A DNA stretch of 64,000 bases from Maribacter vaceletii. Lineage in GTDB: Bacteria > Bacteroidota > Bacteroidia > Flavobacteriales > Flavobacteriaceae. The first letter of the stretch is position 1. Every line of letters begins with the position of its first letter. Below are positions 24,297-38,654 of this stretch, in pieces. The position numbers were made by a program, and so were the translations under genes. The DNA lies in contig NZ_RBIQ01000008.1 of NCBI RefSeq assembly GCF_003634105.1, forward strand, positions 310,001-374,000, read 5' to 3'. A model generated the notes under the pieces. It was not told where the DNA came from and did no database searches. It saw only the letters and a program-made list of their open reading frames with translations.

Positions 24297-24317
24297 AATT
24301 ATTAGCTTTTAAGATTA

Positions 24318-24971: not shown

Positions 24972-25021
24972 TTTATTATTTTTTTAATCTGTTGATTATT
25001 AATACTATCAAAATTATAGTG

Positions 25022-25052
25022 CAAATATAGATATAGGGTTGATACGTGTCAA
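25022..25052 (-). promoter_or_regulatory. Promoter of the nine-gene operon
   Basis: On the minus strand, TTG (25050-25052) and TATATTTG (25022-25029) are separated by exactly 20 nt, a good Bacteroidetes promoter. The transcript would start about 40 nt before the nitroreductase ATG at 24971. An AGTATAGTAT element (25065-25074), like part of the HxlR operator, lies just upstream. Confidence 0.85.
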
Positions 25053-25127
25053 TAACGGTCAAGAAGTATAGTATGAAAATATAATTCTAAATAACTGATA
25101 TACAGTTTTATATACAAAAAATATTTT

Positions 25128-25158
25128 ACTATAAAAAGTATAGTTGCATACTATAGTA
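25128..25158. promoter_or_regulatory. HxlR operator region with palindromes
   Basis: ACTATA-AAAAG-TATAGT (25128-25144) and the perfect palindrome TACTATAGTA (25149-25158) lie around the -33 element of the HxlR gene. A related copy, AGTATAGTAT, is at 25065-25074 near the divergent promoter. Palindromes with 5-nt spacing are usual for dimeric winged-helix HxlR proteins. Binding is inferred. Confidence 0.75.
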
Positions 25159-25174
25159 AAGCTTATTATCTTTG
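25144..25174 (+). promoter_or_regulatory. Promoter of the HxlR regulator gene
   Basis: TTG (25144-25146) and TATCTTTG (25167-25174) with a 20-nt spacer form a near-ideal Bacteroidetes promoter, overlapped by the palindromes at 25128-25158, so the regulator probably represses itself. Confidence 0.85.
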
Positions 25175-25196
25175 TCATATATTTAATATTTAAGAA

Positions 25197-25586
25197 ATGG
25201 ACAGAAAAGAACTGTTTGAAAAGAAACCAAAAATTAAAATCAATAATAAAATATCATTCTGCCCAACGAGCGCAGCAATGGAATTGATAGGTGGTAAATG
25301 GAAGAGTGTTATACTAACCCATTTAATAGGCGACAAAAAACGCTACAACGAATTGAGAAAGGAAATTCCTGGTATTACTGAGCGTACTTTAAGTTTACAG
25401 TTAAAACAATTAGAAGCGGATGGAATGGTAAACAGGAGAGTTTTTACTAAAAAACCACCTTTAAAAGTAGAGTATACCCTTACTGAATTCGGACAAACAT
25501 TGGTTCCTATTCTAAACCTAATTGTTGATTGGGGATTACAAGCGGCAGAAACTAAGGGAGAGTTTTTGTTTGAGGAGACTAAGTAA
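25197..25586 (+). CDS. HxlR-family transcriptional regulator
   Basis: A 129-residue winged-helix protein. CPTSAAMELIGGKWKSVILT is the HxlR signature before the first helices, and KRYNELRKEIPGITERTLSL is the recognition region. Its only cysteine, Cys22, stands just before the first helix, where YodB, CatR and HypR carry the redox cysteine that senses quinones or diamide. The gene is divergent from the nine-gene operon that starts with a nitroreductase. Together with the operators in between this suggests a thiol-based quinone or electrophile sensor; that is by analogy. Confidence 0.9.
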   Translation: MDRKELFEKKPKIKINNKISFCPTSAAMELIGGKWKSVILTHLIGDKKRYNELRKEIPGITERTLSLQLKQLEADGMVNRRVFTKKPPLKVEYTLTEFGQTLVPILNLIVDWGLQAAETKGEFLFEETK

Positions 25587-25615
25587 GAAAAGGCAACCAA
25601 TAGGTTGCCTTTTCT
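25586..25615. terminator. Bidirectional terminator hairpin
   Basis: A perfect 13-bp stem AGAAAAGGCAACC / GGTTGCCTTTTCT with a 4-nt loop starts at the last base of the HxlR stop codon and serves the convergent SDR gene too. Confidence 0.92.
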
Positions 25616-25633
25616 ATACCGAATTAAATAAAC

Positions 25634-26419
25634 TTATATGATACTTTGGGTAATACTTAATAATTCTTCAACTTTATTATCATCATAAGCATCTGGGTGT
25701 GCTTTAGTAAAACCTCCTTTATCATTGTCAAAATAGGCGTTTGTTTTTGCCTTGTCTGTCATACTTAAATCATAAAGAATATCTACTCCCTTTTCTGCAG
25801 GAGACCAATGTTGACCGTAGGCTTCATTAGCCATCTTTGTATTCAATAACGAACCGGGATTTACTGCAACAACCAAAATACTCGGCTCCTTTTTTGCCAA
25901 ATCAAAACTCCACATGGTTAAGGCTAACTTACTTTGTGCATAAGCATCATTCGCTCCTAAATTCATACCGCCTTGCAGTGCATTTATAGAGACTGGGGAT
26001 TGTGCGGCAGAACTAAGATTTACAATTCTAGGCGCAGCTGCTTTTTTCAATAGCGGTAAAATCGTATTAGTAAATTTATACGGTGCTAAATAGTTGACTA
26101 CTAAACGAACATCTACGCCATTCGCAGTACTACCAGTCTTTGTTTTTAAAACACCTGCATTGTTCACCAAAACATCAATTTTTGGCATTTTATCTGCGAC
26201 CTCGGTTGCCATCTTTTGTACATCTGACAAATTTGCGTAATCGGCTAAAAAACCTACTACATTGTTATTCTTTGATTCCGCTTTTATTTCTGATACAGTG
26301 GTTTCTAGCTTTGCTGCAGTTCTACCATGAACACCAACAAAATGACCTTCTTTCGCCAAACGTAATGCTAATAATTTTCCTATTCCGTCTGTACTTCCTG
26401 TAATTAATATATATTTCAT
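25634..26419 (-). CDS. SDR-family NAD(P)-dependent oxidoreductase
   Basis: A 261-residue classical short-chain dehydrogenase. The cofactor motif TGSTDGIGK (residues 7-15), LVNNAG, the catalytic Ser segment NLSSAAQSP and YAQSK (Tyr-x-x-x-Lys) are all present. Substrate not readable. It is the second gene after the 2OG-Fe(II) oxygenase, but a strong hairpin (26449-26478) lies between them and may reduce its transcription. Convergent with the HxlR gene. Confidence 0.88.
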   Translation of the reverse strand: MKYILITGSTDGIGKLLALRLAKEGHFVGVHGRTAAKLETTVSEIKAESKNNNVVGFLADYANLSDVQKMATEVADKMPKIDVLVNNAGVLKTKTGSTANGVDVRLVVNYLAPYKFTNTILPLLKKAAAPRIVNLSSAAQSPVSINALQGGMNLGANDAYAQSKLALTMWSFDLAKKEPSILVVAVNPGSLLNTKMANEAYGQHWSPAEKGVDILYDLSMTDKAKTNAYFDNDKGGFTKAHPDAYDDNKVEELLSITQSII

Positions 26420-26448
26420 TTTAATTAACTTTTGAATTTTCTAAACGA

Positions 26449-26478
26449 AATTTTGGCAGAAAATATTCTGCCAAAATT
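26449..26478. repeat. Intergenic hairpin between oxygenase and SDR genes
   Basis: A perfect 12-bp inverted repeat AATTTTGGCAGA / TCTGCCAAAATT with a 6-nt loop follows the oxygenase stop by 16 nt. On the minus strand it is followed by only three T, so it may be a weak terminator or a processing/stability element within an operon. Confidence 0.75.
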
Positions 26479-26494
26479 CTAATTTCTGATTTTT

Positions 26495-27457
26495 CTAAAA
26501 CGGTGCAAAGGTGTCTTTAGGATCCTCTGGCAAACTCCAACGTTCACGAGCTGTAATGCTTTCTGTTGTAACAACTTTAGATGCTGAATTATTAACACTA
26601 CCATAGCTACTTGCACCACCTTGTGGTATTTGCATACGGTCTCCGTATAGCCATACTACCAAATTATTACGCTGTCCACTTGTAATTGGGTGGGTAGCAT
26701 GAGGTACTTTTCCGGTGTGAATTATTGCTTTTCCAGGTTCAAATATAGTTTGAACAACTTTTCTCGTTGTTTTATCGTGAAAATCAACTTGTGAACCTGT
26801 AAATTTTTCATCAGGTAAATTAATATTGATATTCAAAGTAGCTGCCGAAGCATCCGTATGGGCATGTAAATCTTTATCCTTATCTGGATTATACTGAATA
26901 GAAAATCCAAATGTTTGGTTATCGTAGCCATAAGTACCTAATAATAAACGAGCTATGGGACGCATATAACGATCCATAATTTCATTATAAAATGCCTGAA
27001 AATTAGGTGCTGCAAGATGCCCTTCTGAACGTGGATCTAACATAACTCCATAACGATTTAATTGAATACCATAAGGTGCACGTCTAGGAATTTCAGAATT
27101 TACAGTATCCTCTAAATACTTACGGAATTCCGCTAAACGTTCAAGATCAAAAAACTGCGCAGAATACACTCCAGGGATAATTTCTTCCCATAAATCGGCA
27201 ACAGCATTTTCTTTTTCAGGATTTTCCCATGCTTCGTTAATTGCTTTTCTCAATTTTGGGTCAAGCAGCGTTTCATCAGGAACTAATAAACTGTCTTTAT
27301 TTTCAATTTCCCATTCTGCCCATGCTTCTTCTAATAATTTTCGGTTATCATTCCAAAATTTAGAGACAGATGGTTCACGTCTTAATGAAGCTTCTCGTGT
27401 AGGTAATTCAAGAGCACGTGCCTCTGCAAGTGCATTTGTATTTGTTATTGTTTTCAT
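26495..27457 (-). CDS. 2-oxoglutarate/Fe(II)-dependent oxygenase, prolyl-hydroxylase-like
   Basis: A 320-residue protein. The double-stranded beta-helix iron site is visible: HTD (His200, Asp202) and His253 in GKVPHATHPI, with Arg263 (SGQR) as 2-oxoglutarate ligand. FEPGKAIIHTGKVPHATHPI resembles PKHD-type hydroxylases. The N-terminal 95 residues are helical and acidic, with no known domain. It probably hydroxylates a protein or small molecule. Its promoter carries the AraC-type repeats (27533-27567), tying it to the stress regulon. Confidence 0.82.
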   Translation of the reverse strand: MKTITNTNALAEARALELPTREASLRREPSVSKFWNDNRKLLEEAWAEWEIENKDSLLVPDETLLDPKLRKAINEAWENPEKENAVADLWEEIIPGVYSAQFFDLERLAEFRKYLEDTVNSEIPRRAPYGIQLNRYGVMLDPRSEGHLAAPNFQAFYNEIMDRYMRPIARLLLGTYGYDNQTFGFSIQYNPDKDKDLHAHTDASAATLNININLPDEKFTGSQVDFHDKTTRKVVQTIFEPGKAIIHTGKVPHATHPITSGQRNNLVVWLYGDRMQIPQGGASSYGSVNNSASKVVTTESITARERWSLPEDPKDTFAPF

Positions 27458-27501
27458 GATATTATTTTTTTAAATTTTATAATTGCTTTTATTATTTGAT
27501 A

Positions 27502-27567
27502 CAAATTTAAAGCTAAACAGTAGCTAATTTTTGGTAGTAAAAATGGAAGTTTTAGTAAAAAACAAGG
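27502..27567 (-). promoter_or_regulatory. AraC-type regulated promoter S1 (2OG oxygenase)
   Basis: The -7 box is CAAATTTA on the plus strand (27502-27509, read TAAATTTG). After exactly 23 nt come two 14-bp direct repeats, GGTAGTAAAAATGG (27533-27546) and AGTAAAAAACAAGG (27554-27567), 21 bp apart. No TTG sits at the -33 position. The -7 box is 45 nt from the ATG. Geometry is identical at the three sister promoters S2, S3 and S4. Confidence 0.82.
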
Positions 27568-27591
27568 TTTAAAAAATTAAGAACTTAAAAT

Positions 27592-28671
27592 TTACATCTG
27601 CGTATGTGCATACTCAGGTAGTTGTGATGGAATTGAGTCTATATTGTCTTCAATCATTTCTCTTATATCAATTTCTATGGCTCTAGAAATAGTGGAAATT
27701 GGCACATCATTTCCCATGCCTTCAAACGGATTTTCAGAAGTATCTCCTACGCGTTCCATTGCGAAAAATATCCAAGAAATAATAATGCTAAATGGAATTG
27801 TAAACCACACAAAGTGTTCTGCTATGAATGCAAAAACTTCATTTGAAATTCCAGATTCTACTAGAGATTGCCCTGTAATATCAAACTGTCTCATCAATCC
27901 AAAAGGCATAATGATTATGAATATCCAAATAAAATAAGAGTTTAGTGTTGCAAACTGCCTTGGATAAGGGAAATTTTTAATGCGTTCAGCTTTTCCTTGT
28001 AAAGTAAACAATTCACCAATGATATTTTTAAATTCAACATGTCTAAAGTTGTCTATTAATCCAACGGATTCAAGTTCTCTAATATGTTTAGATTGCAAAT
28101 TTAATGATGCCGTTTGTTTATTGGTTTTATTTAAAACATAAGTTTTCTCAGTTTCCGATAAATACCCCTCTAATTCTTCAGAAAGTGTATGTTCAAACTC
28201 CATAACTTTTATGGATTTCATATGTTCTCTATCTGATTTATTTGTTTTAGCAGTTTCCCATGTTTTCTTTTGCCGAAGTGCATGTCTCAAAGAAGTCATC
28301 CAAGAAACATGACGTAGAATCATTATTTTTCGGATTTGAAACAATTCGTTATCTGTTTTTTTATCCGTCGCATATTCATTGGTGATAAAATCATTTACCA
28401 TAGTGGCAAATAATCTTGAAGCATTTACAATACCACCATATATTTTACGTGCTTCCCATTGTCTATCGTAAGATGCATTATTTTTAAAACCAGTTATAAA
28501 CGCCAGCGCTGTACCAATAAGTCCGATTGGTTGCCACGGCAGTGTTAACCATTTGCAAGCTACAACCTCGTACAGTAACACAGGAATTAATGCGGTTAAG
28601 GCGAATATATAAATATAACGTCTCGTCCATTTAAAAACTACTGCGATTGGATATTTTGGTTTTGTGTACAT
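27592..28671 (-). CDS. Bestrophin-family ion channel
   Basis: A 359-residue bestrophin/RFP-TM family protein. The N-terminal hydrophobic segments (YIYIFALTALIPVLLYEVVA, PIGLIGTALAFITGFKNNAS) with YDRQWEARKIYGGIVNASR are the family signature, and FPYPRQFATLNSYFIWIFII plus FNIIISWIFF-like segments form the rest of the pore. Bacterial homologues are pentameric channels for chloride or cations. Single gene with its own AraC-type promoter (28717-28782). Its place in a redox-stress regulon is unexpected. Confidence 0.88.
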   Translation of the reverse strand: MYTKPKYPIAVVFKWTRRYIYIFALTALIPVLLYEVVACKWLTLPWQPIGLIGTALAFITGFKNNASYDRQWEARKIYGGIVNASRLFATMVNDFITNEYATDKKTDNELFQIRKIMILRHVSWMTSLRHALRQKKTWETAKTNKSDREHMKSIKVMEFEHTLSEELEGYLSETEKTYVLNKTNKQTASLNLQSKHIRELESVGLIDNFRHVEFKNIIGELFTLQGKAERIKNFPYPRQFATLNSYFIWIFIIIMPFGLMRQFDITGQSLVESGISNEVFAFIAEHFVWFTIPFSIIISWIFFAMERVGDTSENPFEGMGNDVPISTISRAIEIDIREMIEDNIDSIPSQLPEYAHTQM

Positions 28672-28716
28672 GGTTAATATTTTTTTTCTTTTTTACAATA
28701 CAATTTAATTACACTA

Positions 28717-28782
28717 CAAAGTTAAGCCTGAAGACTAGTAGTTTTTTGGTAGTAAAAATGGTTGTTTAGGTAAATTTCAAGG
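28717..28782 (-). promoter_or_regulatory. AraC-type regulated promoter S2 (bestrophin)
   Basis: The -7 box CAAAGTTA (28717-28724, read TAACTTTG) is followed after 23 nt by GGTAGTAAAAATGG (28748-28761) and, 21 bp on, GGTAAATTTCAAGG (28769-28782). The first repeat is identical to that of S1. The -7 box is 46 nt from the ATG. Confidence 0.85.
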
Positions 28783-28801
28783 TTTCGTATAAATAGATAA
28801 A

Positions 28802-28823
28802 AAAGCCCCATTTCTGGGGCTTT
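28802..28823 (-). terminator. Terminator of the MDR reductase gene at 28896
   Basis: A perfect 9-bp GC-rich stem AAAGCCCCA / TGGGGCTTT with a 4-nt loop; on the minus strand it runs into CTTTTTT. It lies only 20 nt upstream of the AraC sites of the bestrophin promoter. Confidence 0.92.
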
Positions 28824-28895
28824 CAACAAAACATAATCATCGACATGTTTAGGGTATAAAACTCTAATCGTACGGCATATTTTTAATTCTATGAT

Positions 28896-29879
28896 CTAAT
28901 TTTCAACTACAACTTTTCCGATGGCTGTACCACTAGCTAAGTGTGCATAAGCATCACCCACTTGTTCTAGTGAAAATTGATTTTCGTCAACAATTGGAGT
29001 TAAATGTCCTTCGTTTGAAATTTTGGTCAATTTCTCAAGAATTTCCCCATGTTTTTTTCTGTTGAAACTATGCAACATAGGAATTAACATAAATACTACG
29101 TGTAATGTAGCACCTTTAAAATGTAAAGGCGTTAAATCTAATTCACATAAGGAAACTGTAGTAGAAATATGTCCGTTTAAAGCAACTGCTTCAATAGAAT
29201 TGGTAAGATTTGCACCACCAACGGTATCAAAAACCACATCAAAACCACCATCGGTATATTTTGCAGTATAATCTACTACCTTTTCAGTTTTAAAATCGAT
29301 GAAGGTTGCTCCAAATTTTTCTACAATTGCTTTTTGTTTGTCTCCTGTTCCTGTAGCAAAAACTTCGGCACCAAGATATTTAGCCAATTGCACCGCTAAG
29401 TGGCCAACACCACCAGAACCACCGTGTACTAATACTTTTTGACCTGCTTTTACACCTGCTCTAGTTAAACCTTCGTAAGCTGTAATACCTACTAATGGTA
29501 AGGCTGCAGTTTCGCGCATGGTTAAATTCTTTGGTTTGTGACCAATTAAGTTACTATCTGCAACAATATATTCTGTTAACGTTCCTGGTAAATCTGCAAG
29601 TCCCCCAGCACAACCATATACTTCATCTCCAACGGCATAACCTGTTACACCTTCTCCAACAGCTTCTATTGTTCCAGAAAAATCCATGCCTAATAATGCT
29701 GGAGCAGCTGGTGATAATGGTAAATCTGACCCCATATTTTTAATCATAGTATCAATAGTATTAACACTAGATGCAGCTATTTTAACTAATACGTGATTAG
29801 TTTTTACTGCTGGTTTTTCAATTTCAGTAGCGGTAAATGTTGCATTTTCTCCGTAACTGCTCAATAACATTGCTTTCAT
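28896..29879 (-). CDS. Quinone-oxidoreductase-like MDR protein
   Basis: A 327-residue zinc-independent medium-chain reductase: GroES-like domain with ALLGMDFSGTIEAVGEGVTG and VYGCAGGLADLPGTLTEYIV, Rossmann segment VLVHGGSGGVGHLAVQLAKY. Predicted NADPH-dependent reduction of quinones or enals. It lies downstream of the enoyl-CoA hydratase-like gene with a 148-nt gap that contains an unusual repeat cluster; the two may share promoter S3. Followed by a strong terminator. Confidence 0.88.
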   Translation of the reverse strand: MKAMLLSSYGENATFTATEIEKPAVKTNHVLVKIAASSVNTIDTMIKNMGSDLPLSPAAPALLGMDFSGTIEAVGEGVTGYAVGDEVYGCAGGLADLPGTLTEYIVADSNLIGHKPKNLTMRETAALPLVGITAYEGLTRAGVKAGQKVLVHGGSGGVGHLAVQLAKYLGAEVFATGTGDKQKAIVEKFGATFIDFKTEKVVDYTAKYTDGGFDVVFDTVGGANLTNSIEAVALNGHISTTVSLCELDLTPLHFKGATLHVVFMLIPMLHSFNRKKHGEILEKLTKISNEGHLTPIVDENQFSLEQVGDAYAHLASGTAIGKVVVEN

Positions 29880-29930
29880 ATCTAATCTTTTTTATTTATT
29901 TCGTTCATCGGTAATCGTTGTTGGTTTTTC

Positions 29931-30025
29931 GCTTTACTCTATGCGCTACACGCTTCGCGCTTTACTCAAAAATTTAAAAGCGATATGCGCTAAGCGTAAA
30001 GCGTAAAGCGCAAGGCGCTCAGCAC
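29931..30025. repeat. Cluster of short GCGTAAAGC-type direct and inverted repeats
   Basis: This stretch is much richer in GC than its surroundings and is built from variants of GCGCTTTAC and its complement GTAAAGCGC (for example 29957-29965 and 30003-30011), with GCGTAAAGCGTAAAGCGC as a tandem block near 29994-30011 and GCGCT near the ends. It could fold into an imperfect hairpin between the MDR and enoyl-CoA hydratase-like genes. It may be a dispersed intergenic palindromic element; other copies are not seen in this window. Confidence 0.7.
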
Positions 30026-30027
30026 CC

Positions 30028-30873
30028 TTAATTCACTGCTTGAATATCCATTACCATTTGCTCCCAATTCTTTTGATTATCATGGTCAAATTGAGCTCCG
30101 TTATCATCTGCATAAGCAAAACGTTTTATTGCAGGCGTTTTACTTGTAGCTTGAAATAATTGGTAGGCTTCTTCTTTTAAAGCTTCTTTAATTGGCAGGT
30201 CTATAGAAGCATACACTGCTCTTTTGCTAGCAGCAATTGAATCTGCAGGAAATTGCGATATGCGTTCTGCCAAGGCATCTACATAAGCACCAATCTCATC
30301 TGCATCTAAGGCTTTGTTAATAGTTCCAAATTTTTCAGCCTCATCCGCATCCCAATCTCTAGCACCTAATATTATTTCTAATGCTTTTCCTAAACCTGCT
30401 TGTCTAGCCATACGTGATGCACCACCACCACAAGGTAAAATTCCCATTCCTACTTCCATCTGCATAAACTTGGCTTTTCCTCTGGCTGCAAAACGCATAT
30501 CTAAAGCCAATGCCATTTCGTGTCCGCCTCCTCTTGCGAAACCTTCAATTTTTGCAATAGTAGCTTGGGGTACATTGCTTAATCTCTCAAGAATCGATTG
30601 TAAATCTAAAAGTTGTACTTCATTTCGTGGTACCGCTTCTGTAGACATATCTTTAAGTAAGTTGGTATCATAATGACACACCCAATATCCAGGATTTGAT
30701 GATTCAAAAATCACCACTTTTACACTTCTATCTCGCTCTAATCGTAAGCATAAACTACTTAAATCTGCTAGCATTTCTTGTCCCTGAACATTTACTGGTC
30801 CAAAATTGATATCTACCGTTAAAATTCCTCCTTTTTGCTCTGCTGTAAATGTTTGAAAATTCTTGTAATCCAT
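30028..30873 (-). CDS. Enoyl-CoA hydratase/isomerase-family (crotonase) protein
   Basis: A 281-residue crotonase-fold protein: VDINFGPVNVQGQEML, the acyl-CoA pocket segment IEGFARGGGHEMALALDMRF, then MEVGMGILPCGGGASRMARQ. The usual oxyanion glycine segment is present, and a glutamate lies in the second segment where catalytic acids occur. No other beta-oxidation gene is nearby, so a different crotonase reaction (isomerase, hydrolase, ring cleavage) is possible. First gene after promoter S3 of the AraC-type regulon. Confidence 0.82.
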   Translation of the reverse strand: MDYKNFQTFTAEQKGGILTVDINFGPVNVQGQEMLADLSSLCLRLERDRSVKVVIFESSNPGYWVCHYDTNLLKDMSTEAVPRNEVQLLDLQSILERLSNVPQATIAKIEGFARGGGHEMALALDMRFAARGKAKFMQMEVGMGILPCGGGASRMARQAGLGKALEIILGARDWDADEAEKFGTINKALDADEIGAYVDALAERISQFPADSIAASKRAVYASIDLPIKEALKEEAYQLFQATSKTPAIKRFAYADDNGAQFDHDNQKNWEQMVMDIQAVN

Positions 30874-30918
30874 AATCTTATGTTTTAGGTTATTATTTAT
30901 TCTGTATTACTTACAGTA

Positions 30919-30984
30919 CAAAGTTACCTCGGCACACAAGCTTTGGATAAGTAAAAAACGAAGGGGTTTTAGTAAAAAAAAAGG
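30919..30984 (-). promoter_or_regulatory. AraC-type regulated promoter S3 (crotonase, MDR)
   Basis: The -7 box CAAAGTTA (30919-30926, read TAACTTTG) is followed after 23 nt by AGTAAAAAACGAAG (30950-30963) and, 21 bp on, AGTAAAAAAAAAGG (30971-30984). The repeats lie 12 nt beyond the stop of the AraC gene. The -7 box is 46 nt from the ATG at 30873. Confidence 0.82.
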
Positions 30985-30995
30985 TAAATGGTATT

Positions 30996-31862
30996 TTACT
31001 GAGTGATACTTGCTTTAAAATTACCAATAGTCATCCCTTTATAACTCTGAAAAGTCTTATTAAGATGACTAGAATCTGTAAATCCTAATTCCATTGCAAT
31101 TTCTGAAAACTGCAAATCGGTATATTTTAATCGGGTTTCAACAAGCTTTAATTTGTAGTTGATGATATACTTTTTTAAAGAAACATCAGTATGTTTTTTA
31201 AAGTACTCACTCATATAATTATCTGCCATATGAAATTCTTCTGCTAGACTTTTAGTTGTGAGCAATTCAGAATTGTAAATATTAGCATGAATAAAATTTA
31301 TGATTTGTTGGATCTTAGATGATTCAACGACCTTGGTGGTTATATCAGCATTAAGAAACTGAATATTACGTGCTATTAAATGAAGAATTACTGAAAGTGA
31401 ATTTTGAATAATAAACACATCATACGATTTCTTTTTATCATTTTCAGCCGCTACCATTTTTATTAGTGATATCAGGTGTACTTTATCTGATTCGATTTCA
31501 AACTGCATTTCACGAAGTTGATGACTTTCACTATTTAATATTCCCTCAATTTTACGAAACCAATCGTTAACAGGAAGATTTTCATTTTGCGGAGCATCTC
31601 CTCTAAAAAAACTTTTTAAAAATTTAATAGCGGTAGTTGTAGTCTCAGCGTCTGGATTTAAAATATAAATGTCATCAGGAACAAAAACAAAAACACTGTT
31701 AGAAGTGTAATTTACAGTATTACCATTTATTTTAATACTCCCCTCGCCTTTTTCTATATATACAATCTCAAAAAAACGAATGGTAGTATATTTACAAAAC
31801 TCAAAAAAGGTTTGGTCTTTATACTGGGCAATTACAATGTTTTCAATTATAGTGCGCGCCAT
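30996..31862 (-). CDS. AraC-family transcriptional regulator, last gene of the S4 operon
   Basis: A 288-residue regulator. Residues 1-110 form a cupin-like sensor (FFEIVYIEKGEGSIKINGNT, VFVPDDIYIL), and residues 190-285 contain the two helix-turn-helix units (LTTKSLAEEFHMADNYMSEY, FSEIAMELGFTDSSHLNKTF). Last of six genes reading from 36412, so it is produced with the reductases it probably activates. It is the best candidate to bind the repeats at S1-S4. The gene at 37212 encodes a related regulator. Confidence 0.88.
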   Translation of the reverse strand: MARTIIENIVIAQYKDQTFFEFCKYTTIRFFEIVYIEKGEGSIKINGNTVNYTSNSVFVFVPDDIYILNPDAETTTTAIKFLKSFFRGDAPQNENLPVNDWFRKIEGILNSESHQLREMQFEIESDKVHLISLIKMVAAENDKKKSYDVFIIQNSLSVILHLIARNIQFLNADITTKVVESSKIQQIINFIHANIYNSELLTTKSLAEEFHMADNYMSEYFKKHTDVSLKKYIINYKLKLVETRLKYTDLQFSEIAMELGFTDSSHLNKTFQSYKGMTIGNFKASITQ

Positions 31863-31876
31863 AGTTTACTGATGAT

Positions 31877-33523
31877 TTATTTACTGGAATTTATAAATTT
31901 TTCTTGCGCTAGAAACTTATGAATATCACTAACTACAATAGACCCCTCACCAACCGCTGATGCTACACGTTTTACAGAGCCCGAACGTACATCACCAACT
32001 GCAAAAAGTCCGGGTAAACTGGTTTCAAAAGCATAGGGCTTTCTATTTTTAAACACCGATTCACTATTCAATGCATTTTCACAAATAGTAAGTCCGGTAT
32101 GTACAAAACCTTTTTCGTCAGTATCAATAATATTATGTAACCATTCTGTACACGGTTTTGCACCAACGAAAGTGAATAGGTAAATTATTTTATTCTTTAC
32201 AAATTCATCTTTTTTCTTAATATTTACTTTTTCTAAATAGGTATCTCCCTCTACTTTAACTACATTACTATTGGTTAGCACCTCTATATTTTCACAAGCA
32301 AAGATTCGTTGCACCAAATAATCGCTCATTTTGGCGCCAATATCTTCATTTCTAATAATCACATATACTTTATGCGCAAAATTTGCCAAGAATAACGCTG
32401 CTTGACCAGCAGAATTACCACCTCCGACAATGCCAATTTCACTGTTTTTACACATATTGGCATGCATAGAAGTTGCGCTGTAATAAATACCTGCACCTTC
32501 AAATTTTTCTATTCCATCTAAAGGTAACTTTCTATAAGCGGCACCCGTAGCGGCGATTACAGTTTTAGCTTTTAAAGAAGATGTGTTGCTGGCGTGAATT
32601 TCATAAATTCCTGCTTTACGTTCAATACTTTCTACTCTATGAGGCACAGAAATAGTACATCCAAATTTTTGAGCTTGAATGTACCCGTTATTTGCTAAAT
32701 CTCTACCAGAAATTCCTGTGGGAAAACCTAGGTAATTTTCAATTTTAGAACTTTTACCTGCTTGTCCTCCAGGGGAATTACTATCGATGGTTAATACTTT
32801 TAACCCTTCAGAAGAAGCATATACACTAGCTGCTAAACCTGCAGGACCAGCACCAACTACTAGAACATCATAAACTTCATCATCTAATTTTAATCGTACT
32901 CCCGAGCATTCTCCTATTTCATCGATTGATGGGCGAATAGCTATTTCATTCTGGCTATTAATTAAAACTGGAAGGTCTTCCATAGTTAAGTTAAATGTCT
33001 TTAACAATTGGACAAGTCCTTCTTCTTTATCGGAATCAATAAACTTATACCAAATGTCATTCTTATCCATAAAATCACGGATGGCATAGGTTTCATTGGA
33101 GTGCTCAGAACCTATAAGTTTTATACCTTGAATATTATTTTTCATTGCATCTTCACGAAGTAAAAATGCATTAAGTAGCACATCACTTATATCACTGAAC
33201 TTAGCAATGGCATTTTTAAGTTTATCAGGTTTTATGCGTATAAGTTTCGTATTTTCTAAGGTTTCGCCACAAACACCAACTGTTCTATGGGATAAAATAC
33301 TACTTGAGCCAGAAAATTGATGCTTTCTGTGAATTGTAAGACTTTCATCTTTTTTGTCAGGATCAATAATTTTTATTCCCCCTTTTAGCACTACCAAAAA
33401 ATCGTAATGTTGATCTCCAAAATCTAAAACAACAGTAGGATTCTCATGAAACTCTATGGTTCCGTAATTTTTTAATTTTTCAATTTGTTGGTTTGTAAGT
33501 TCTGGAAATTTAGGATCAATCAT
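31877..33523 (-). CDS. cNMP-binding-domain flavoprotein, thioredoxin-reductase-like without redox cysteines
   Basis: A 548-residue three-part protein. Residues 1-125: cyclic-nucleotide-binding-type beta roll (VLKGGIKIIDPDKKDES, LIRIKPDKLKNAIAKFSDIS). Residues 130-210: glutaredoxin-like fold (YAIRDFMDKNDIWYKFIDSD) without CxxC. Residues 215-548: thioredoxin-reductase fold with FAD motif VVGAGPAGLAASVYASSEG, NAD(P) motif GIVGGGNSAGQAALF and FAVGDVRSGSVKRVASAVGE. Where thioredoxin reductase has CATC, this has SATS (YYSATSMHAN), so it cannot reduce thioredoxin in the usual way. It lies between a UBP zinc-finger gene (11-nt gap) and araC (14-nt gap), and may be a sensor or a flavin reductase. Confidence 0.85.
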   Translation of the reverse strand: MIDPKFPELTNQQIEKLKNYGTIEFHENPTVVLDFGDQHYDFLVVLKGGIKIIDPDKKDESLTIHRKHQFSGSSSILSHRTVGVCGETLENTKLIRIKPDKLKNAIAKFSDISDVLLNAFLLREDAMKNNIQGIKLIGSEHSNETYAIRDFMDKNDIWYKFIDSDKEEGLVQLLKTFNLTMEDLPVLINSQNEIAIRPSIDEIGECSGVRLKLDDEVYDVLVVGAGPAGLAASVYASSEGLKVLTIDSNSPGGQAGKSSKIENYLGFPTGISGRDLANNGYIQAQKFGCTISVPHRVESIERKAGIYEIHASNTSSLKAKTVIAATGAAYRKLPLDGIEKFEGAGIYYSATSMHANMCKNSEIGIVGGGNSAGQAALFLANFAHKVYVIIRNEDIGAKMSDYLVQRIFACENIEVLTNSNVVKVEGDTYLEKVNIKKKDEFVKNKIIYLFTFVGAKPCTEWLHNIIDTDEKGFVHTGLTICENALNSESVFKNRKPYAFETSLPGLFAVGDVRSGSVKRVASAVGEGSIVVSDIHKFLAQEKFINSSK

Positions 33524-33534
33524 GTTTGGTTGGT

Positions 33535-33804
33535 TTAATAAGTTACAAAAGCTTCATCTTTATAACACCAAAGCCAACGCTCGTTAGGTTCGGCAGAACT
33601 AATTACCGGATGACTTGTAGAACGAAAATGTGCAGTAGCATGCTTGTTTTTAGAATCATCACAACAAAGTGTAACCCCACATTCTTGACAAGTACGCAAA
33701 TGCACCCAGACATCGCCTAGTTTCACACATTCTTCACACACATGTTTGGTAGCAGCTTTTAATTCTGAAATGGAGTTGATATGACTACAAACATTTTTTT
33801 TCAT
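33535..33804 (-). CDS. UBP-type zinc-finger protein
   Basis: An 89-residue protein that is almost all ZnF-UBP domain: CSHI (residues 5-8), CEECVKLGDVWVHLRTCQEC, CCDDSKNKHATAHFRSTSHP. The Cys and His spacing is that of the zinc finger that binds the free C-terminus of ubiquitin in eukaryotic deubiquitinases. Bacteria lack ubiquitin, and in bacteria this domain is often a neighbour or fusion partner of the flavoprotein type encoded next to it. Its ligand here is unknown. The position, 11 nt before the flavoprotein gene, suggests they work together. Confidence 0.9.
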   Translation of the reverse strand: MKKNVCSHINSISELKAATKHVCEECVKLGDVWVHLRTCQECGVTLCCDDSKNKHATAHFRSTSHPVISSAEPNERWLWCYKDEAFVTY

Positions 33805-33834
33805 GAATTTGATATTACCATATTAGTGAGATGC

Positions 33835-34680
33835 TTATAGAACTAAACTAGTTACTTCAAATTTTCCGTTAGCCCTAATATAAATAATAGTTTCCTTTTC
33901 TGCCGAAATATTATGTATAGAATTTTCTGCAGCACCAAAATAAGTACCTGCATCTAAAACATCTACATTTTTATCATTAACAAGTTGATGTTTTATATTT
34001 CCAGAAATAACTACAGCTCTAAAATTTGGACTCAGGTTTTTAATGCTACCACTAAAACCGGCTGGTAATTTTAAAAGTGTAGCACGCAATTGGTTTTCTT
34101 CATGGCTTCCCCATAAAAAAGCTGTTTGTACTTTACTCTTTTCAGAGACCCATTCAATATCGTTGGCATTTAACCATACTAAATTGGTTTTATCTACATT
34201 TATAGGTCGTTCACCATTATCAAAAGCTTCTGAAGTTGGTTGTACCAAATACGGCCCTTCTTGAATATCTAAAAATGCCATATTTTCATTATCGTCAGCT
34301 GCAGTAATATGCGCTTCTCCTGCTGGTTGTTGCCAGTAAGAACCTGCTGGTAACCACTGTTTCTCTGCATTTTCATCATCATTATGTAATAAACCTTGTA
34401 TTACAACACCTCTATAAGTGATGTTGTGAATGTGTGGAGGTGATGAAAATCCTTTTTTAAATTTCACTAAAAAGCCCGCAGGTTCATTTTTTGTACGATC
34501 TCCCCATAGTTTTCCGGCAGCCGGACTTTTATCGCCTCGTAACGGATTTAACCATCCCCATTCTACATTATCTGCTGTTACTACCTCATTTACAGATTTT
34601 GTTGGATCTGTTGTTGGTGTTTGAGCGTTTGTGTATACCGTTGTTGCTATTGCTAATGCAAGTAATATTGTTTTTTTCAT
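33835..34680 (-). CDS. Secreted double-cupin protein, DUF4437-like
   Basis: A 281-residue protein with a signal peptide ([20 protein letters not shown]) and two cupin halves: residues 40-150 ([40 protein letters not shown]) and 165-275 ([35 protein letters not shown]). The first half retains His residues that could bind a metal (PPHIH, EAHITA); the second is degenerate. DUF4437 proteins are uncharacterised. Third gene of the S4 operon, with gaps of 41 nt upstream and 30 nt downstream. Confidence 0.8.
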
Positions 34681-34721
34681 TTTGATATTTTTTATTAGTG
34701 TTTTTATTTAACTCAATAAGC

Positions 34722-35729
34722 CTAAAATCCTTCTAAAACAATTTTACCTTTTGCTTTACCTGTTTCTAAAAAAGCATGAGCTTTTCTAAGGTTTTCAGCA
34801 TTTATAGTTCCAAAATTTTCTCCTAACGTAGTTCTAATAGTTCCGTTGTCGATTAATTCAGAAGCTTTGTTCAAGATATGGTGTTGCTCTATCATATCTT
34901 CCGTTTGAAACATTGAGCGTGTGAACATTAACTCTATGTGTGTAGAAACTGCTTTTCCTTTAAAAGGCATTACATTTAGCGATTTTGGGTCATCTATAAA
35001 TCCGAATTTACCTTGTGGTTTTATCAGTTTAGCAATTTCACCTACGTGGTGTTCCGTAGCATTTAAGCTTACTACATACTCTGGAGCTGGTAAATTGTAT
35101 TTCTCGAACTCTTCGCTCAACTTATTTCTGTGATTAATAACCGTGTCTGCACCTAATTCTTTTAACCAAGACGTAGTTTCTTCACGAGAAGCCGTACCTA
35201 CAATATTCAACTTCGTCAGTTTTTTAGCCAATTGCACCAAAATAGAACCTACACCACCGGCGGCACCAATAACCAAAATAGATTTGTTGGCATCGTCTTT
35301 AGATACCTCTAATCGATCAAACAACATTTCATAGGCTGTAAGTGTGGTCAATGGTAAGGCAGCAGCTTCAGCATAAGATAAACTTTGAGGTTTTTTGCCT
35401 ACAATGCGTTCGTCTACAATTTGGTATTCTGCATAACTACCTTGACGGGTAAAATCACCAGCATACCAAACTTCATCTCCAACATTAAAAAGAGTAACCT
35501 CTTCACCAATTGCTGTCACTATTCCGGTAGCATCCCAACCAATTACTTTCCAGTTGTCACCTTCTGCAGGCATTCCTGCACGAACTTTATAATCTGCTGG
35601 ATTTACAGAAATCGCTTTAATTTCTACTAAAATATCTCTTCCTGTAGCTTTTGGAGTTTCCAATTCTACATCTTGTAAAGACTTTGTATTGTCAATTGGA
35701 AGATTCTCTTTGTATCCTATTACTTTCAT
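34722..35729 (-). CDS. Zinc-binding-type alcohol dehydrogenase family protein, enone/quinone reductase-like
   Basis: 335 residues from the ATG at 35729 (MKVIGYKENLPIDNT); a six-residue longer frame from 35747 overlaps the nitroreductase gene and is less likely. Medium-chain reductase: AISVNPADYKVRAGMPAEGD, GWDATGIVTAIGEEV, VIGAAGGVGSILVQLAKKLT. It resembles the ZADH subgroup (E. coli QorB-related) that reduces quinones or enones with NADPH. Second gene of the S4 operon; starts 8 nt after the nitroreductase stop. Confidence 0.87.
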   Translation of the reverse strand: MKVIGYKENLPIDNTKSLQDVELETPKATGRDILVEIKAISVNPADYKVRAGMPAEGDNWKVIGWDATGIVTAIGEEVTLFNVGDEVWYAGDFTRQGSYAEYQIVDERIVGKKPQSLSYAEAAALPLTTLTAYEMLFDRLEVSKDDANKSILVIGAAGGVGSILVQLAKKLTKLNIVGTASREETTSWLKELGADTVINHRNKLSEEFEKYNLPAPEYVVSLNATEHHVGEIAKLIKPQGKFGFIDDPKSLNVMPFKGKAVSTHIELMFTRSMFQTEDMIEQHHILNKASELIDNGTIRTTLGENFGTINAENLRKAHAFLETGKAKGKIVLEGF

Positions 35730-35737
35730 AATATTTC

Positions 35738-36412
35738 TTATTTCCAAGTTACAATGTCCTCCAATGGTCTTCTAGATTTTGGAAATTCCGGGTCTGCCTT
35801 TCTGTATCCGAATGCAGCCATAAAAGCTAAACCATACTTATCTGTATCCACGCCAAATTTCTCTTTAAGCAATGCTTCTGCTTTTTCTTGGTGAAAACCT
35901 TCTATAGGGCAAGAATCGATTCCTGAAAGTGCAGCAGCAGTCATCATATTTCCTAAAGCGATATAAGTCTGCTTTGAAGACCAATCGAATAATTTTTTAT
36001 CTGAATCTAAGTTAAAATCACGCTCTTGAAACTCTCGGTAAAACTTAGAGTATACTTCTACAACATCTTCGGGCATTTGTTTTACCTCTTTCATCATATG
36101 TTCAATATACGCCGCATCATGCTTTACCATAGGGGCTTTCATAGCTAGTCCTAAAATAAAGTGACTAGCTGTATCCAATTTTACGGGAGCACCCCAAGCT
36201 ACCGGCTTTAAAAGTTCACGTAAATCTTTATCTTGAACAACTACAAAATGCCATGGCTCAAAACCAAATGAACTTGGCGATAAATTGGCAGTTTTTAATA
36301 TAAAATTGATTTGCTCATCGGTTAATGTTTTTGACGCATCAAATTCTTTGGTAGCATGCCTGTAGTTAAATGCACTTAAAATATCTTCTTGTGCAATGTT
36401 TGGAGTATTCAT
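35738..36412 (-). CDS. NAD(P)H-dependent nitroreductase-family oxidoreductase (first gene of S4 operon)
   Basis: A 224-residue FMN nitroreductase: NYRHATKEFDASKT, ANLSPSSFGFEPWHFVVVQD, MTAAALSGIDSCPIEGFHQE and AFGYRKADPEFPKSRRP. It resembles the copy at 24318-24971 (shared KEFDA, LSPSS and IDxCPxEG). Predicted quinone/nitro reduction with NAD(P)H. Leads a six-gene unit that ends with araC and is preceded by the regulated promoter at 36454-36519. Confidence 0.88.
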   Translation of the reverse strand: MNTPNIAQEDILSAFNYRHATKEFDASKTLTDEQINFILKTANLSPSSFGFEPWHFVVVQDKDLRELLKPVAWGAPVKLDTASHFILGLAMKAPMVKHDAAYIEHMMKEVKQMPEDVVEVYSKFYREFQERDFNLDSDKKLFDWSSKQTYIALGNMMTAAALSGIDSCPIEGFHQEKAEALLKEKFGVDTDKYGLAFMAAFGYRKADPEFPKSRRPLEDIVTWK

Positions 36413-36453
36413 CTTTATATATTTTTTATTGTATTGTTTACTTTTCCTGAAGA

Positions 36454-36519
36454 CAAAGGTAAATCTACAATACTCCTTATTTAAGGTACAAAAAAAGGAA
36501 AAGAAGGTATAAATGGAGG
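36454..36519 (-). promoter_or_regulatory. AraC-type regulated promoter S4 (six-gene operon with araC)
   Basis: The -7 box CAAAGGTA (36454-36461, read TACCTTTG) is followed after 23 nt by GGTACAAAAAAAGG (36485-36498) and, 21 bp on, GGTATAAATGGAGG (36506-36519). The -7 box is 42 nt from the ATG at 36412. This is the clearest case because both repeats match the consensus well. Confidence 0.87.
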
Positions 36520-36626
36520 TTTTTAAGTGGCAAAATCTTAAAATATTGCCAAAACAAGCTAGATACAGGTAAAATTACCGAGGTTTTAATACATTAATTT
36601 AATGTTAAGCCTTTATAATTACAATT

Positions 36627-36926
36627 CTAATTGGTAAGCTCTGTCATTTTATAAGCAGAAACATTCTCAAGCTTATCTTTAGAAGCAAGTCTATAGGCAG
36701 CAATGTGGTCACTTTGTGAATGTTTGGTCAAATAATCTTGATTCACCCATTTTTCGTGGAATAAGAACAGATTGGGGTTATCGTTATCTTGATGTAAGTC
36801 GTAGGCGATACAACCTTCTTCCGCTCTAGTGGGACTAACCAGTTTCAGCAATTCCGATTTTATTTCGTCTCTATATTCTTCTTTTACTAATATATGTACC
36901 ACTAAGGTTAAATAAGATTTTTTCAT
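36627..36926 (-). CDS. ABM-domain putative quinol monooxygenase
   Basis: A 99-residue dimeric alpha-beta barrel protein of the YgiN/ABM type: LTLVVHILVKEEYRDEIKSE, TRAEEGCIAYDLHQDNDNPN, FLFHEKWVNQDYLTKHSQSD. Cofactor-free oxidation of quinols or catechols is the known activity of relatives. It is a single gene, separate from the S4 operon by about 110 nt and with no clear AraC repeat at the expected distance. It is divergent from the second AraC gene. Confidence 0.88.
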   Translation of the reverse strand: MKKSYLTLVVHILVKEEYRDEIKSELLKLVSPTRAEEGCIAYDLHQDNDNPNLFLFHEKWVNQDYLTKHSQSDHIAAYRLASKDKLENVSAYKMTELTN

Positions 36927-37110
36927 AAGATGCTGTAAATGGGTTCTAAAGTTAAATCTATAAAAGTAAAGATTGATGCGCTATAAACCAGTTTACTTAC
37001 TTAAATAATTGGTTAATTTAACAAAAATAGAGATTCGGTAATTTTTAGTGTTTTATTTTTCATTTTTTAAAAAATATAAATTGGAGTAGTGATAAAGTAA
37101 AATTATAATT

Positions 37111-37145
37111 GGTAATAGTAATGGTTAAAGTTGTATAAATAAAGG
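37111..37145 (+). promoter_or_regulatory. Possible AraC-type repeat pair upstream of the second AraC gene (S5)
   Basis: GGTAATAGTAATGG (37111-37124) and, 21 bp on, TGTATAAATAAAGG (37132-37145) resemble the S1-S4 repeats. A TAATTTTG -7 box (37177-37184) lies downstream, but the repeats face it in the opposite orientation to S1-S4, and no -7 box is found 23 nt away on the minus strand. I regard it as weak. Confidence 0.4.
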
Positions 37146-37211
37146 GTAATGTAAATGATTTTAATTGGTTTTATATTAATTTTGGTCATATATCACTTAA
37201 CTACCCTTATA

Positions 37212-38096
37212 ATGCAAATATTAGAAGCACACAAACCTTTTGAAATACAAGAAATTAAATTAGAAGATTGGAAACAACGCCCTGTTAAAAACAATTTTTT
37301 TGAACTGGTTTTAATTAAAGACGGAAAAGGAACTCAGTGTATAAACTATAATCATTATGAATACGAAAGAGGAAGTATGTTTTTATTACCTCCATTAAAA
37401 TGCCACTCTTTTACGATAAGCAAACCAACAACATTCGTTTTTTTAAAATTTACCGATTCATTTTTTAAAAATGCAAATAAAATTACTATAGATAGAAATG
37501 AATGGTTTAAAGAGGCTTCGTATATATTATCTAACTACAATCAATTACCTGGAGATATTATTAAAAATGAAGTAGACCGTAACTATTTAGAAAACCTTAT
37601 TAACATGATTTTACAAGAATCTAGAAGTTATGGAGAAGAGTCTATTAATTTGGTAACAAGTTTTATGACAAGTATACTAGAGATTTTAATTCGTAATATT
37701 AAAAAGAGTAGTTATTTTGAAGCCCCAAAAAGTAATTCTGATGATAAAATCACTAAAATGCTCACCTATATTAATGAAAACATTGATAAAACGGAACTAC
37801 TAAAAGTTGAAAATTTAGCTGATGTTTTTATGATGTCTTCTACTTATGTTAGTGAATATTTTAAGAAGCAAGTAAGTATGTCTTTAAGAGAATACATAAT
37901 TAAAGCCAAACTTAAATTAGTAGAAATACGCATATTAAATTCTGATTATACACTTACAGAGATTGCAGATGAATTAGGATTTACAGATGTTAGTCACTTA
38001 TCTAAAACATTTAAACGATATGCAGGTACATCGATAAGAGAATTTAAAAACAACGGGGAATACATGTTGTTAAAAAGAGGAGCTTGTGTTGCTTAA
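37212..38096 (+). CDS. AraC-family transcriptional regulator
   Basis: 294 residues from the ATG at 37212 (MQILEAHKPFEIQEIKLE). A start at 37155 would add 19 hydrophobic residues that do not fit the family and would place the -7-like box TAATTTTG inside the gene. Cupin-like sensor at 1-110 (FFELVLIKDGKGTQCINYNH, MFLLPPLKCHSFTI) and double helix-turn-helix at 195-285 (LLKVENLADVFMMSSTYVSE, LTEIADELGFTDVSHLSKTF). It is clearly related to the regulator at 30996-31862. Its target is unknown. Confidence 0.87.
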   Translation: MQILEAHKPFEIQEIKLEDWKQRPVKNNFFELVLIKDGKGTQCINYNHYEYERGSMFLLPPLKCHSFTISKPTTFVFLKFTDSFFKNANKITIDRNEWFKEASYILSNYNQLPGDIIKNEVDRNYLENLINMILQESRSYGEESINLVTSFMTSILEILIRNIKKSSYFEAPKSNSDDKITKMLTYINENIDKTELLKVENLADVFMMSSTYVSEYFKKQVSMSLREYIIKAKLKLVEIRILNSDYTLTEIADELGFTDVSHLSKTFKRYAGTSIREFKNNGEYMLLKRGACVA

Positions 38097-38195
38097 CAAT
38101 AAGTTCATATGTAATATTTTATATTAATTAACTACACTTACCTGCAATTCTTCTCTTAAATTTCATGTATTTTTGCACTCAAAATACGTATACCA

Positions 38196-38654
38196 ATGAA
38201 GCACTTTATTTGTTCCCTATTTATAGTTTTCTTTTTATCTTGTAATAATGACGAAAAGAATGGAGTAAAAGATTATAGAGCAGAAAACGACCAAGAAATT
38301 TTAGATTACTTAGAAGCAAATAATTTAGAAGCAAAAAAAAGCACCTCTGGATTATATTATATAATTAATACTGTTGGAACCGGTGAAAAACCTAACTCTT
38401 CGTCTAGTGTAACAGTTGCTTATAAAGGCTACTTTACTAATGGAAGTGTTTTTGATCAAAGTGATGCGGATGGAATTTCTTTTGGTTTAAACCAAGTTAT
38501 AAAAGGTTGGACAGAAGGGATACAATATTTTAATGAAGGAGGAGACGGAATACTTTTTATACCTTCTCATTTAGGATACGGAAGTAGTGATTACAGTTCT
38601 ATTCCTGGTGGCTCTGTGTTAATTTTTGATATAAAGCTACTTAAAATTAACTAA
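38196..38654 (+). CDS. FKBP-type peptidyl-prolyl isomerase, lipoprotein
   Basis: A 152-residue protein with a lipoprotein signal (MKHFICSLFIVFFLSCNNDE, lipid on Cys16). A short linker leads to an FKBP domain (residues 55-150): SSSVTVAYKGYFTNGSVFDQ, VIKGWTEGIQYFNEGGDGIL, FIPSHLGYGSSDYSSIPGGS. It should speed proline isomerisation in folding envelope proteins. A TATTTTTG -7 box is at 38168-38175. Its last 4 bases overlap the end of the convergent gene. Confidence 0.9.
   Translation: MKHFICSLFIVFFLSCNNDEKNGVKDYRAENDQEILDYLEANNLEAKKSTSGLYYIINTVGTGEKPNSSSSVTVAYKGYFTNGSVFDQSDADGISFGLNQVIKGWTEGIQYFNEGGDGILFIPSHLGYGSSDYSSIPGGSVLIFDIKLLKIN

Follow-up and report, generated by a model that had tools for sequence, protein, structure and literature searches.

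In the 64,000-nucleotide stretch of the genome of the marine bacterium Maribacter vaceletii analyzed here (the window), four minus-strand promoters share one rigid architecture of paired direct repeats followed by a TAnnTTTG box. We propose, with a probability of roughly 0.7, that these promoters are served by two paralogous AraC/XylS-type activators with closely similar yet distinguishable operators, that AraC2 acts above AraC1 in a cascade, that an HxlR regulator substitutes for AraC2 in other genomes, and that the signal is probably electrophilic.

At the sequence level, each of the four sites consists of two 14-bp repeats with a period of 21 bp and, after a further 23 nt, the TAnnTTTG box. 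The operator-promoter of the 2OG-oxygenase/SDR unit (27502-27567) is composed of a distal repeat at 27554-27567, a proximal repeat at 27533-27546 and a TAAATTTG box at 27502-27509, while that of the bestrophin gene (28717-28782) has repeats at 28769-28782 and 28748-28761 and a TAACTTTG box at 28717-28724. The crotonase/MDR operator-promoter (30919-30984), located immediately 3' of the araC1 stop, contains repeats at 30971-30984 and 30950-30963 as well as a TAACTTTG box at 30919-30926, and that of the unit running from the nitroreductase gene to araC1 (36454-36519) contains repeats at 36506-36519 and 36485-36498 and a TACCTTTG box at 36454-36461. With box-to-ATG distances of 45, 46, 46 and 42 nt, respectively, the coordinates, strand, repeat length, both spacings and the 42-46 nt to the ATG given in a first-pass annotation of this DNA were all reproduced. 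A TTG at N17-23 before the box occurred in 3 of 98 distinct sites, compared to 46 of 98 in the control gap N4-10; the earlier observation that no TTG stands at -33 therefore holds, and this absence supports the predicted activator-type nature of these promoters. The part of PMC9723704 on flavobacterial sigma-A promoters places TAnnTTTG at -12 to -5; this box is common to both, but in the sites described here the TTG is nearly absent and its place is taken by the repeats. The 21-bp period in turn supports the proposed AraC-type operators. According to the operator descriptions in PMC4514859, XylS recognizes TGCA-N6-GGNTA-N6, present twice at Pm, and MekR recognizes CACC-N5-CTTCAA-N6, also present twice, both being, like the sites in the window, tandem direct repeats of about 15 bp with a 21-bp period that adjoin the promoter. 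Unlike these operators, the present sites have different half-site letters and stand a constant 23 nt from a flavobacterial TAnnTTTG box, and a single island combines two paralogs and a corresponding pair of operator classes.

All genes of the four units are encoded on the minus strand. The nitroreductase NTR1 (35738-36412) leads a unit that continues with MDR_A (34722-35747), an MDR-type zinc-binding dehydrogenase and, through TIGR02817, the only one of ten proteins with an NCBIfam name above cut-off, a DUF4437 cupin with a signal-like N-terminal stretch (33835-34680), a UBP-type zinc finger protein (33535-33804), a thioredoxin-reductase-type flavoprotein whose N-terminal part has a weak cNMP-binding match (31877-33523) and, as final gene, araC1 (30996-31862). 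The remaining units encode a crotonase-fold protein of the enoyl-CoA hydratase/isomerase family (30028-30873) with the MDR-type dehydrogenase MDR_B 148 nt past it (28896-29879), a bestrophin-family channel (27592-28671), and a 2OG-Fe(II) oxygenase-like protein (26495-27457; distantly similar to procollagen lysyl hydroxylase, Pfam OGFOD2-like match below cut-off) with a short-chain dehydrogenase (SDR) 75 nt past it (25634-26419). The gene set looks like a detoxification set. No described regulon with such membership was found in open-access text, which covers part of the literature, and the first-pass statement to that effect was not contradicted there; for Zobellia, the relevant portion of PMC5613140 names AraC and HxlR regulators as classes only.

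Within the 3.89-Mb genome, the strict full-architecture pattern produced four matches without mismatch, which were the four reported sites, none at one mismatch and 11 at two, with 12 matches at up to two mismatches in the backwards-read control. When one site at a time was left out of matrices covering repeats and box, the omitted site ranked fourth in all four cases, intermixed with the three training sites or next after them. Matrices of the repeats alone ranked it 3rd, 4th, 5th and 4th among all positions on both strands, and an unreported fifth repeat pair scored above the 30919 site. The repeat matrix was noisy at a low cut-off, with 149 matches above 14 bits compared to 90 in the reversed sequence; 16 pairs above 22 bits occurred in reversed sequence. 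A model built from 45 relatives' sites, which included no window sequence but whose sites had originally been identified by means of a matrix built on the four window sites, gave full-length matches in the M. vaceletii genome at the four sites only (E 1.7e-12 to 6.9e-9). The next two matches (E 7.8e-4 and 9.3e-4) were partial and lay within long open frames, the former (L090) having a pair of TAC triplets with the 21-bp spacing but no CC ends. By both the exact pattern with its fixed spacings and the relatives' model, the genome-wide set comprises just the four promoters originally proposed as a regulon.

In 45 of 45 related loci carrying araC1, a matrix built solely from the window detected the repeat pair followed, 23 nt further on, by TAnnTTTG (L161-L163 and L035, duplicates of other loci, were excluded from site tables and tree). 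Among 95 distinct repeat pairs of these relatives, 88 had the box at exactly 23 nt, and a half-site spacing of 21 bp was found 87 times, the next commonest spacing (18 bp) seven times and any spacing in the reversed control at most once. The stretch between repeat and box varied in sequence and was fixed in length. In a panel of 199 genomes of the family, the site was present in 16 genomes, every one with araC1 or araC2, corresponding to 16 of the 17 genomes with AraC1/AraC2-clade proteins and none of the 182 others (Fisher p 1.1e-22, ignoring kinship); the 17th, G193, had a site match at E 1.7e-4. The suggested link of the motif to an AraC regulator is thus borne out across genomes. That the repeats are instead the target of another protein, an RNA element or copies from a recent promoter duplication is hardly credible: their position upstream of the -7 box puts them outside the transcript that would be expected, a search of 24000-38500 against Rfam found no family, the variable sequence and constant length up to the box as well as the tracking of AraC1/AraC2 argue against it, and the XylS and MekR operators described in PMC4514859 have the same period.

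The paralog of AraC1, AraC2 (37% identity), is encoded on the plus strand at 37155-38096 and, like the fifth repeat pair beside its gene, was absent from the first-pass account. The true start of araC2 is probably Met20 (37212), preceded by TAATTTTG at 37177-37184. In keeping with the double helix-turn-helix at the C-terminus and the sensing domain at the N-terminus that characterize AraC/XylS activators, both proteins had HTH_18, HTH_AraC and AraC_binding matches, the last of these scoring 20.7 bits for AraC2 at a cut-off of 21.1; no solved structure related to AraC1 by sequence was found at E 1e-6. The tree separated an AraC1 clade of 52 rows from an AraC2 clade of 31 rows, three of them shortened by locus ends, with support of 100/100 each, and the presence of AraC2 required at least nine changes on the AraC1 tree. 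The clades differed consistently at 13 positions of the DNA-binding region, and most recognition-region residues were common to both. Conserved cysteines were Cys23 in AraC1 as well as Cys62 and Cys83 in AraC2 (numbering from the 37155 start).

The operators form two classes that differ mainly at the base preceding TAC, a pyrimidine for crotonase, 2OG oxygenase and bestrophin (class A, half-site CC-N7-Y-TAC) and a purine for the nitroreductase operon (class B, CC-N7-R-TAC). With class models trained on the sites of AraC1-only genomes and on nitroreductase sites, the log-odds in the window were +30.1 (27502), +13.3 (28717) and +25.0 (30919) for the class A operators and -37.5 for the class B operator at 36454. 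Operator class predicted the regulator in single-regulator genomes: 39 of 39 sites were class A where AraC1 occurred alone, and 18 of 18 were class B across the 13 genomes that had AraC2 but lacked an intact araC1. The latter count omits L178 (a partial match with no frame behind it) and four sites of G394, and derives from 14 of the 25 genomes with AraC2-clade proteins, examined further as those without a clear AraC1 among the matches listed. Among the held-out sites, those before crotonase, 2OG oxygenase, MDR_B or bestrophin genes of two-regulator genomes were class A in 45 of 45 cases and ABM sites were class B in four of four; sites before other genes were class B in nine of ten cases, with a cut-off crotonase site as the exception. 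Of the four sites in G394, which encodes both regulators, three were class A (two adjoining its AraC1 genes, one before the 2OG oxygenase) and the fourth, adjoining AraC2, was class B. The purine/pyrimidine rule is not strict, as the 45 class A sites of two-regulator genomes comprised 34 YY, seven YR and four RY combinations and 20 of 23 nitroreductase sites were RR. Scores close to zero were obtained for L059 (+1.6), L048 (+2.1) and the 2OG-oxygenase operator of G209 (-2.2), a genome without AraC1 in which this operator has purines at both positions. Operators of orthologous promoters share descent, and only four independent pairs were available on supported branches, all of them concordant (sign test p 0.125).

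MarA, SoxS and Rob have overlapping specificity, and the two paralogs could likewise both bind all sites, the classes then reflecting promoter ancestry or affinity differences. The identical CC and TAC cores, the shared recognition-region residues and the intermediate sites would fit such an arrangement, but we consider it unlikely in view of the perfect segregation in single-regulator genomes, which includes non-orthologous targets, the difference at the same position in both half-sites and the 13 clade-specific positions.

A single regulator, AraC1, had been proposed for all four promoters in the first-pass annotation, which would include activation of its own unit and leave AraC2 in another role. 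This assignment, to which the common architecture of the four sites and the position of araC1 at the end of the unit led by 36454 lend some support, appears distinctly improbable. In AraC1-positive genomes lacking AraC2, the nitroreductase-operon site was present in 0 of 18, although araC1 shares that locus (seven of 25 AraC1-only loci had no visible nitroreductase gene and were not counted), the site persists in genomes without intact araC1, and the 36454 operator belongs to the other class. AraC2-bearing genomes had the nitroreductase site in 24 of 24 cases, 23 by a matrix score of at least 19.9 and L056 at 10.4 but with a model E of 1.3e-5.

In 16 of these 18 AraC2-lacking genomes, a divergent HxlR gene faced the nitroreductase operon, and the HxlR proteins encoded beside nitroreductase operons in 21 of 21 cases had a cysteine located 12 residues N-terminal to the lysine of GGK. 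This position matches Cys11 of B. subtilis HxlR in the section of PMC7835342 on the HxlR/DUF24 thiol regulators YodB, HypR and HxlR; in contrast to those systems, HxlR is predicted here to replace AraC2 at the same operon in other genomes. Judging from gene position and a shared palindrome, the HxlR/DUF24 regulator probably takes the first step in AraC2-lacking relatives.

Under the two-activator reading, AraC2 would read class B half-sites and activate the nitroreductase-MDR-cupin-UBP-flavoprotein-araC1 unit, and AraC1 produced from this unit would read class A half-sites and activate, as the second step, the crotonase-MDR, bestrophin and 2OG oxygenase-SDR units. A dimer on the repeats beside the -33 region would be expected to recruit RNA polymerase because the repeats end 23 nt before a TAnnTTTG box without a -33 TTG. 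The signal may be reactive electrophiles such as quinones or carbonyls, sensed via the conserved cysteines, as the enzyme families and these cysteines suggest. In E. coli, one AraC protein, RhaR, controls the gene for another, RhaS, which in turn controls enzymes. The proposed order of AraC2 above AraC1 resembles this arrangement, but RhaR-RhaS is sugar-responsive, whereas the present genes code for oxidoreductases and their predicted upstream regulator belongs to different families in different genomes. We give about even odds to the further proposal that the upstream sensor was swapped several times between AraC and a cysteine-bearing HxlR while the downstream AraC kept its targets, that a single purine/pyrimidine position, occurring in each half-site of the rigid 66-bp promoter, is what chiefly keeps the paralogs apart, and that genomes with AraC2 alone re-coded a target operator into the opposite class, as in the 2OG-oxygenase site of G209.

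To our knowledge, Bacteroidota regulons outside sugar use are poorly mapped. The proposed AraC1/AraC2 regulon is compact and has a patchy distribution across marine genera. Natural knock-outs are available, since some genomes have both regulators and others only AraC1 or only AraC2, and in one genome araC1 is probably broken; how operator specificity evolves in paralogous regulators, and how a sensor is swapped between families, can therefore be tested directly. The four promoters also supply a strict and short flavobacterial architecture that is predicted to be activator-dependent.

The fifth repeat pair (37111-37145, minus strand; repeats 37132-37145 and 37111-37124) lies on the class B side between araC2 and a downstream gene for an ABM-domain protein (36627-36926, minus strand), and a search for TAnnTTTG at 20-25 nt found none. 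In the relatives L047 and L083, an AlkB-like gene is preceded by a similar operator; the fifth pair is therefore perhaps a relic of such a promoter or a control site of araC2.

Four sites in the window exhibited the same architecture on the minus strand: a 14-bp sequence occurs twice in direct orientation at a period of 21 bp, and TAnnTTTG stands exactly 23 nt further on. According to PMC9723704 this box is a flavobacterial sigma-A element, occupying -12 to -5 in F. psychrophilum. The first-pass annotation had described these repeats and spacings together with the absence of TTG at -33, and both descriptions held: the distance to the ATG was 42-46 nt at all four sites, and among 98 distinct sites only three carried TTG at N17-23, compared to 46 of them for a control gap. 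The sites at 27502-27567 (upstream of a unit encoding a 2OG-oxygenase-like protein that resembles lysyl hydroxylase and an SDR; class score +30.1), 28717-28782 (bestrophin; +13.3) and 30919-30984 (crotonase and MDR dehydrogenase; +25.0) belonged to predicted operator class A, the proposed target of the regulator AraC1 (30996-31862, minus strand). The site at 36454-36519 (-37.5) was of class B, the proposed target of the paralog AraC2 (37155-38096, plus strand), and precedes genes for a nitroreductase, MDR, DUF4437 cupin, UBP zinc finger, flavoprotein and AraC1, separated by gaps of -10, 41, 30, 11 and 14 nt. A single AraC1 regulon, as originally proposed, is in line with class A at three promoters, but for the fourth promoter the class B site and the lack of a nitroreductase-unit site in AraC1-positive, AraC2-negative genomes argue against it.

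Within its own genome the full architecture yielded four exact matches, all in the window, none with a single mismatch and 11 with two, while the backwards control pattern gave 12 matches at up to two mismatches. Model R1, built from 45 sites in 32 relatives' loci, contains no window sequence, though its training sites were themselves located with a matrix made from the window's four sites. Its only full-length matches were the same four sites (E 1.7e-12 to 6.9e-9); the next best were partial (E 7.8e-4 and 9.3e-4) and within long open frames. The own-genome regulon therefore spans only about 9 kb, to which a fifth pair (37111-37145, minus strand, between araC2 and the ABM gene; class score -12.1), weaker and not among the R1 matches, can be added.

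Scanning GTDB contigs for relatives of AraC1 identified 45 loci, at 59-91% identity, whose titles nearly all name Flavobacteriaceae genera (Maribacter, Zobellia, Arenibacter, Cellulophaga, Winogradskyella, Tenacibaculum and others). With the window-only matrix, each of the 45 yielded a pair scoring over 22 bits whose box lay 23 nt away, compared to 16 pairs over 22 bits in total in reversed sequence; at a lower cut-off the repeat matrix was noisy (149 matches above 14 bits versus 90 reversed). The box lay at exactly 23 nt in 88 of 95 distinct pairs, and half-sites were spaced by 21 bp in 87 pairs, the next commonest spacing being 18 bp with seven (reversed control at most one). In L061, L063 and L072, near 10857-10878, a third element resembling a half-site preceded the pair by 18 bp, the spacing of the seven pairs just mentioned. 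At L066:10891 a class A pair without box is directly followed by a fragment of MDR_B, the dehydrogenase after crotonase; the crotonase gene seems to have been deleted from within the promoter. At L084 (Aquimarina) and G394:C2:386184, distant relatives of AraC1 go with a class A site in front of the gene for a small protein (about 110 aa), which has no Pfam match in L084.

AraC1 and AraC2 share 37% identity and formed separate clades (52 and 31 rows; support 100/100 each). The class A model was derived from sites of AraC1-only genomes (30 distinct) and the class B model from nitroreductase sites of genomes with both regulators (21 distinct). With each sequence left out of its model, 39/39 A and 23/23 B sites were assigned to their own class. 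Among held-out sites of two-regulator genomes, all 45 before crotonase, 2OG oxygenase, MDR_B and bestrophin were class A and all four before ABM class B; ten others comprised nine B and one A, which belongs to crotonase and lies where its contig stops. Class B also accounted for 18/18 sites (12 new to the test) in 12 AraC2 genomes without AraC1, as judged at E 1e-25, plus G443. In the latter the araC1 match (G443:C18:323390-323746) covers residues 1-119 only and the genome's single site is class B; this araC1 is probably truncated, a natural near knock-out. In G394, which has both regulators, class A sites lay next to its AraC1 genes and in front of 2OG oxygenase, and one of class B lay next to AraC2. 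One contig, G360:C4, contained three class B sites along with two genes of the AraC2 clade (84% and 74% identity).

At both half-sites the nucleotide preceding TAC gave the strongest single class difference, with YY in 37/39 AraC1-only sites and RR in 20/23 nitroreductase and 16/18 AraC2-only sites. This rule was not strict, as two-regulator genomes had 34 YY, seven YR and four RY among their 45 class A sites. Thirteen positions of the DNA-binding region separated the clades consistently; among them are residues 213, 215, 264 and 268, which adjoin invariant residues of the presumed recognition helices. The araC2 frame probably starts too early (37155-37212), since most orthologs begin at a Met that corresponds to residue 20; with that start, the -7 box would be TAATTTTG at 37177-37184.

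In 199 family genomes, R1 at E 1e-5 matched 16, of which 13 contained an AraC1 ortholog and three (G093, G102, G209) AraC2 without AraC1; a fourth AraC2-only genome, G193, had its site at E 1.7e-4. No site was found by this search in the other 182, seven of which carry AraC proteins of 29-39% identity outside both clades (Fisher p = 1.1e-22 for site and regulator, not corrected for kinship). The module is accessory, since only one (G007) of seven other genomes examined from the window's genus has AraC1.

The nitroreductase-unit site was present in 24/24 AraC2-positive genomes, 23 by matrix and L056 via R1 (E 1.3e-5; matrix score 10.4). All 18 nitroreductase genes of AraC2-negative genomes were without site (best matrix score 3.1), and 16 of them faced a divergent HxlR gene, as did site-less second nitroreductases in L051, L052 and the window. 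ACTATA-N5-TATAGT, a plausible candidate for the HxlR operator, occurred in all 19 intergenic regions between HxlR and nitroreductase genes. AraC2 presence switched at least nine times on the AraC1 tree, and the only four independent pairs on supported branches all agreed (p = 0.125). At 24318-25586 the window's second nitroreductase, NTR2, is divergent from HxlR with these palindromes in between, and its unit continues with an uncharacterised protein, a two-ABM-domain protein and an alpha-acetolactate decarboxylase-like protein.

Among the open-access papers listed for AraC, HxlR, nitroreductase, TAnnTTTG, DUF4437, Zobellia and Flavobacteriia/Bacteroidetes, a coverage with few subscription journals, none described this regulon in its title or the opening of its abstract. 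Its component parts are of kinds already known; what is new is the pairing of operator classes and the proposed exchange of the sensor. Because the enzymes under these sites include a nitroreductase, two MDR dehydrogenases, an SDR and a thioredoxin-reductase-like flavoprotein, joined in relatives behind class B-type sites by an aldo/keto reductase (L050, L085) and an AlkB-type 2OG oxygenase domain (L047, L049, L054, L083), the membership suggests a gene set for handling reactive electrophiles. Cys23 of AraC1 was kept in 47/52 rows (gaps in the other five), Cys62 and Cys83 of AraC2 in 31/31 and Cys22 of HxlR in 21/21, the last matching Cys11 of B. subtilis HxlR, a type of residue described in PMC7835342 as an electrophile or oxidant sensor in this family. 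Class B sites also preceded lipoprotein-like proteins of 351-358 aa with an MRJP/SGL match (L043, L053, L055), and some of these additional sites in relatives had a shorter distance to the box, 21-22 nt rather than 23.
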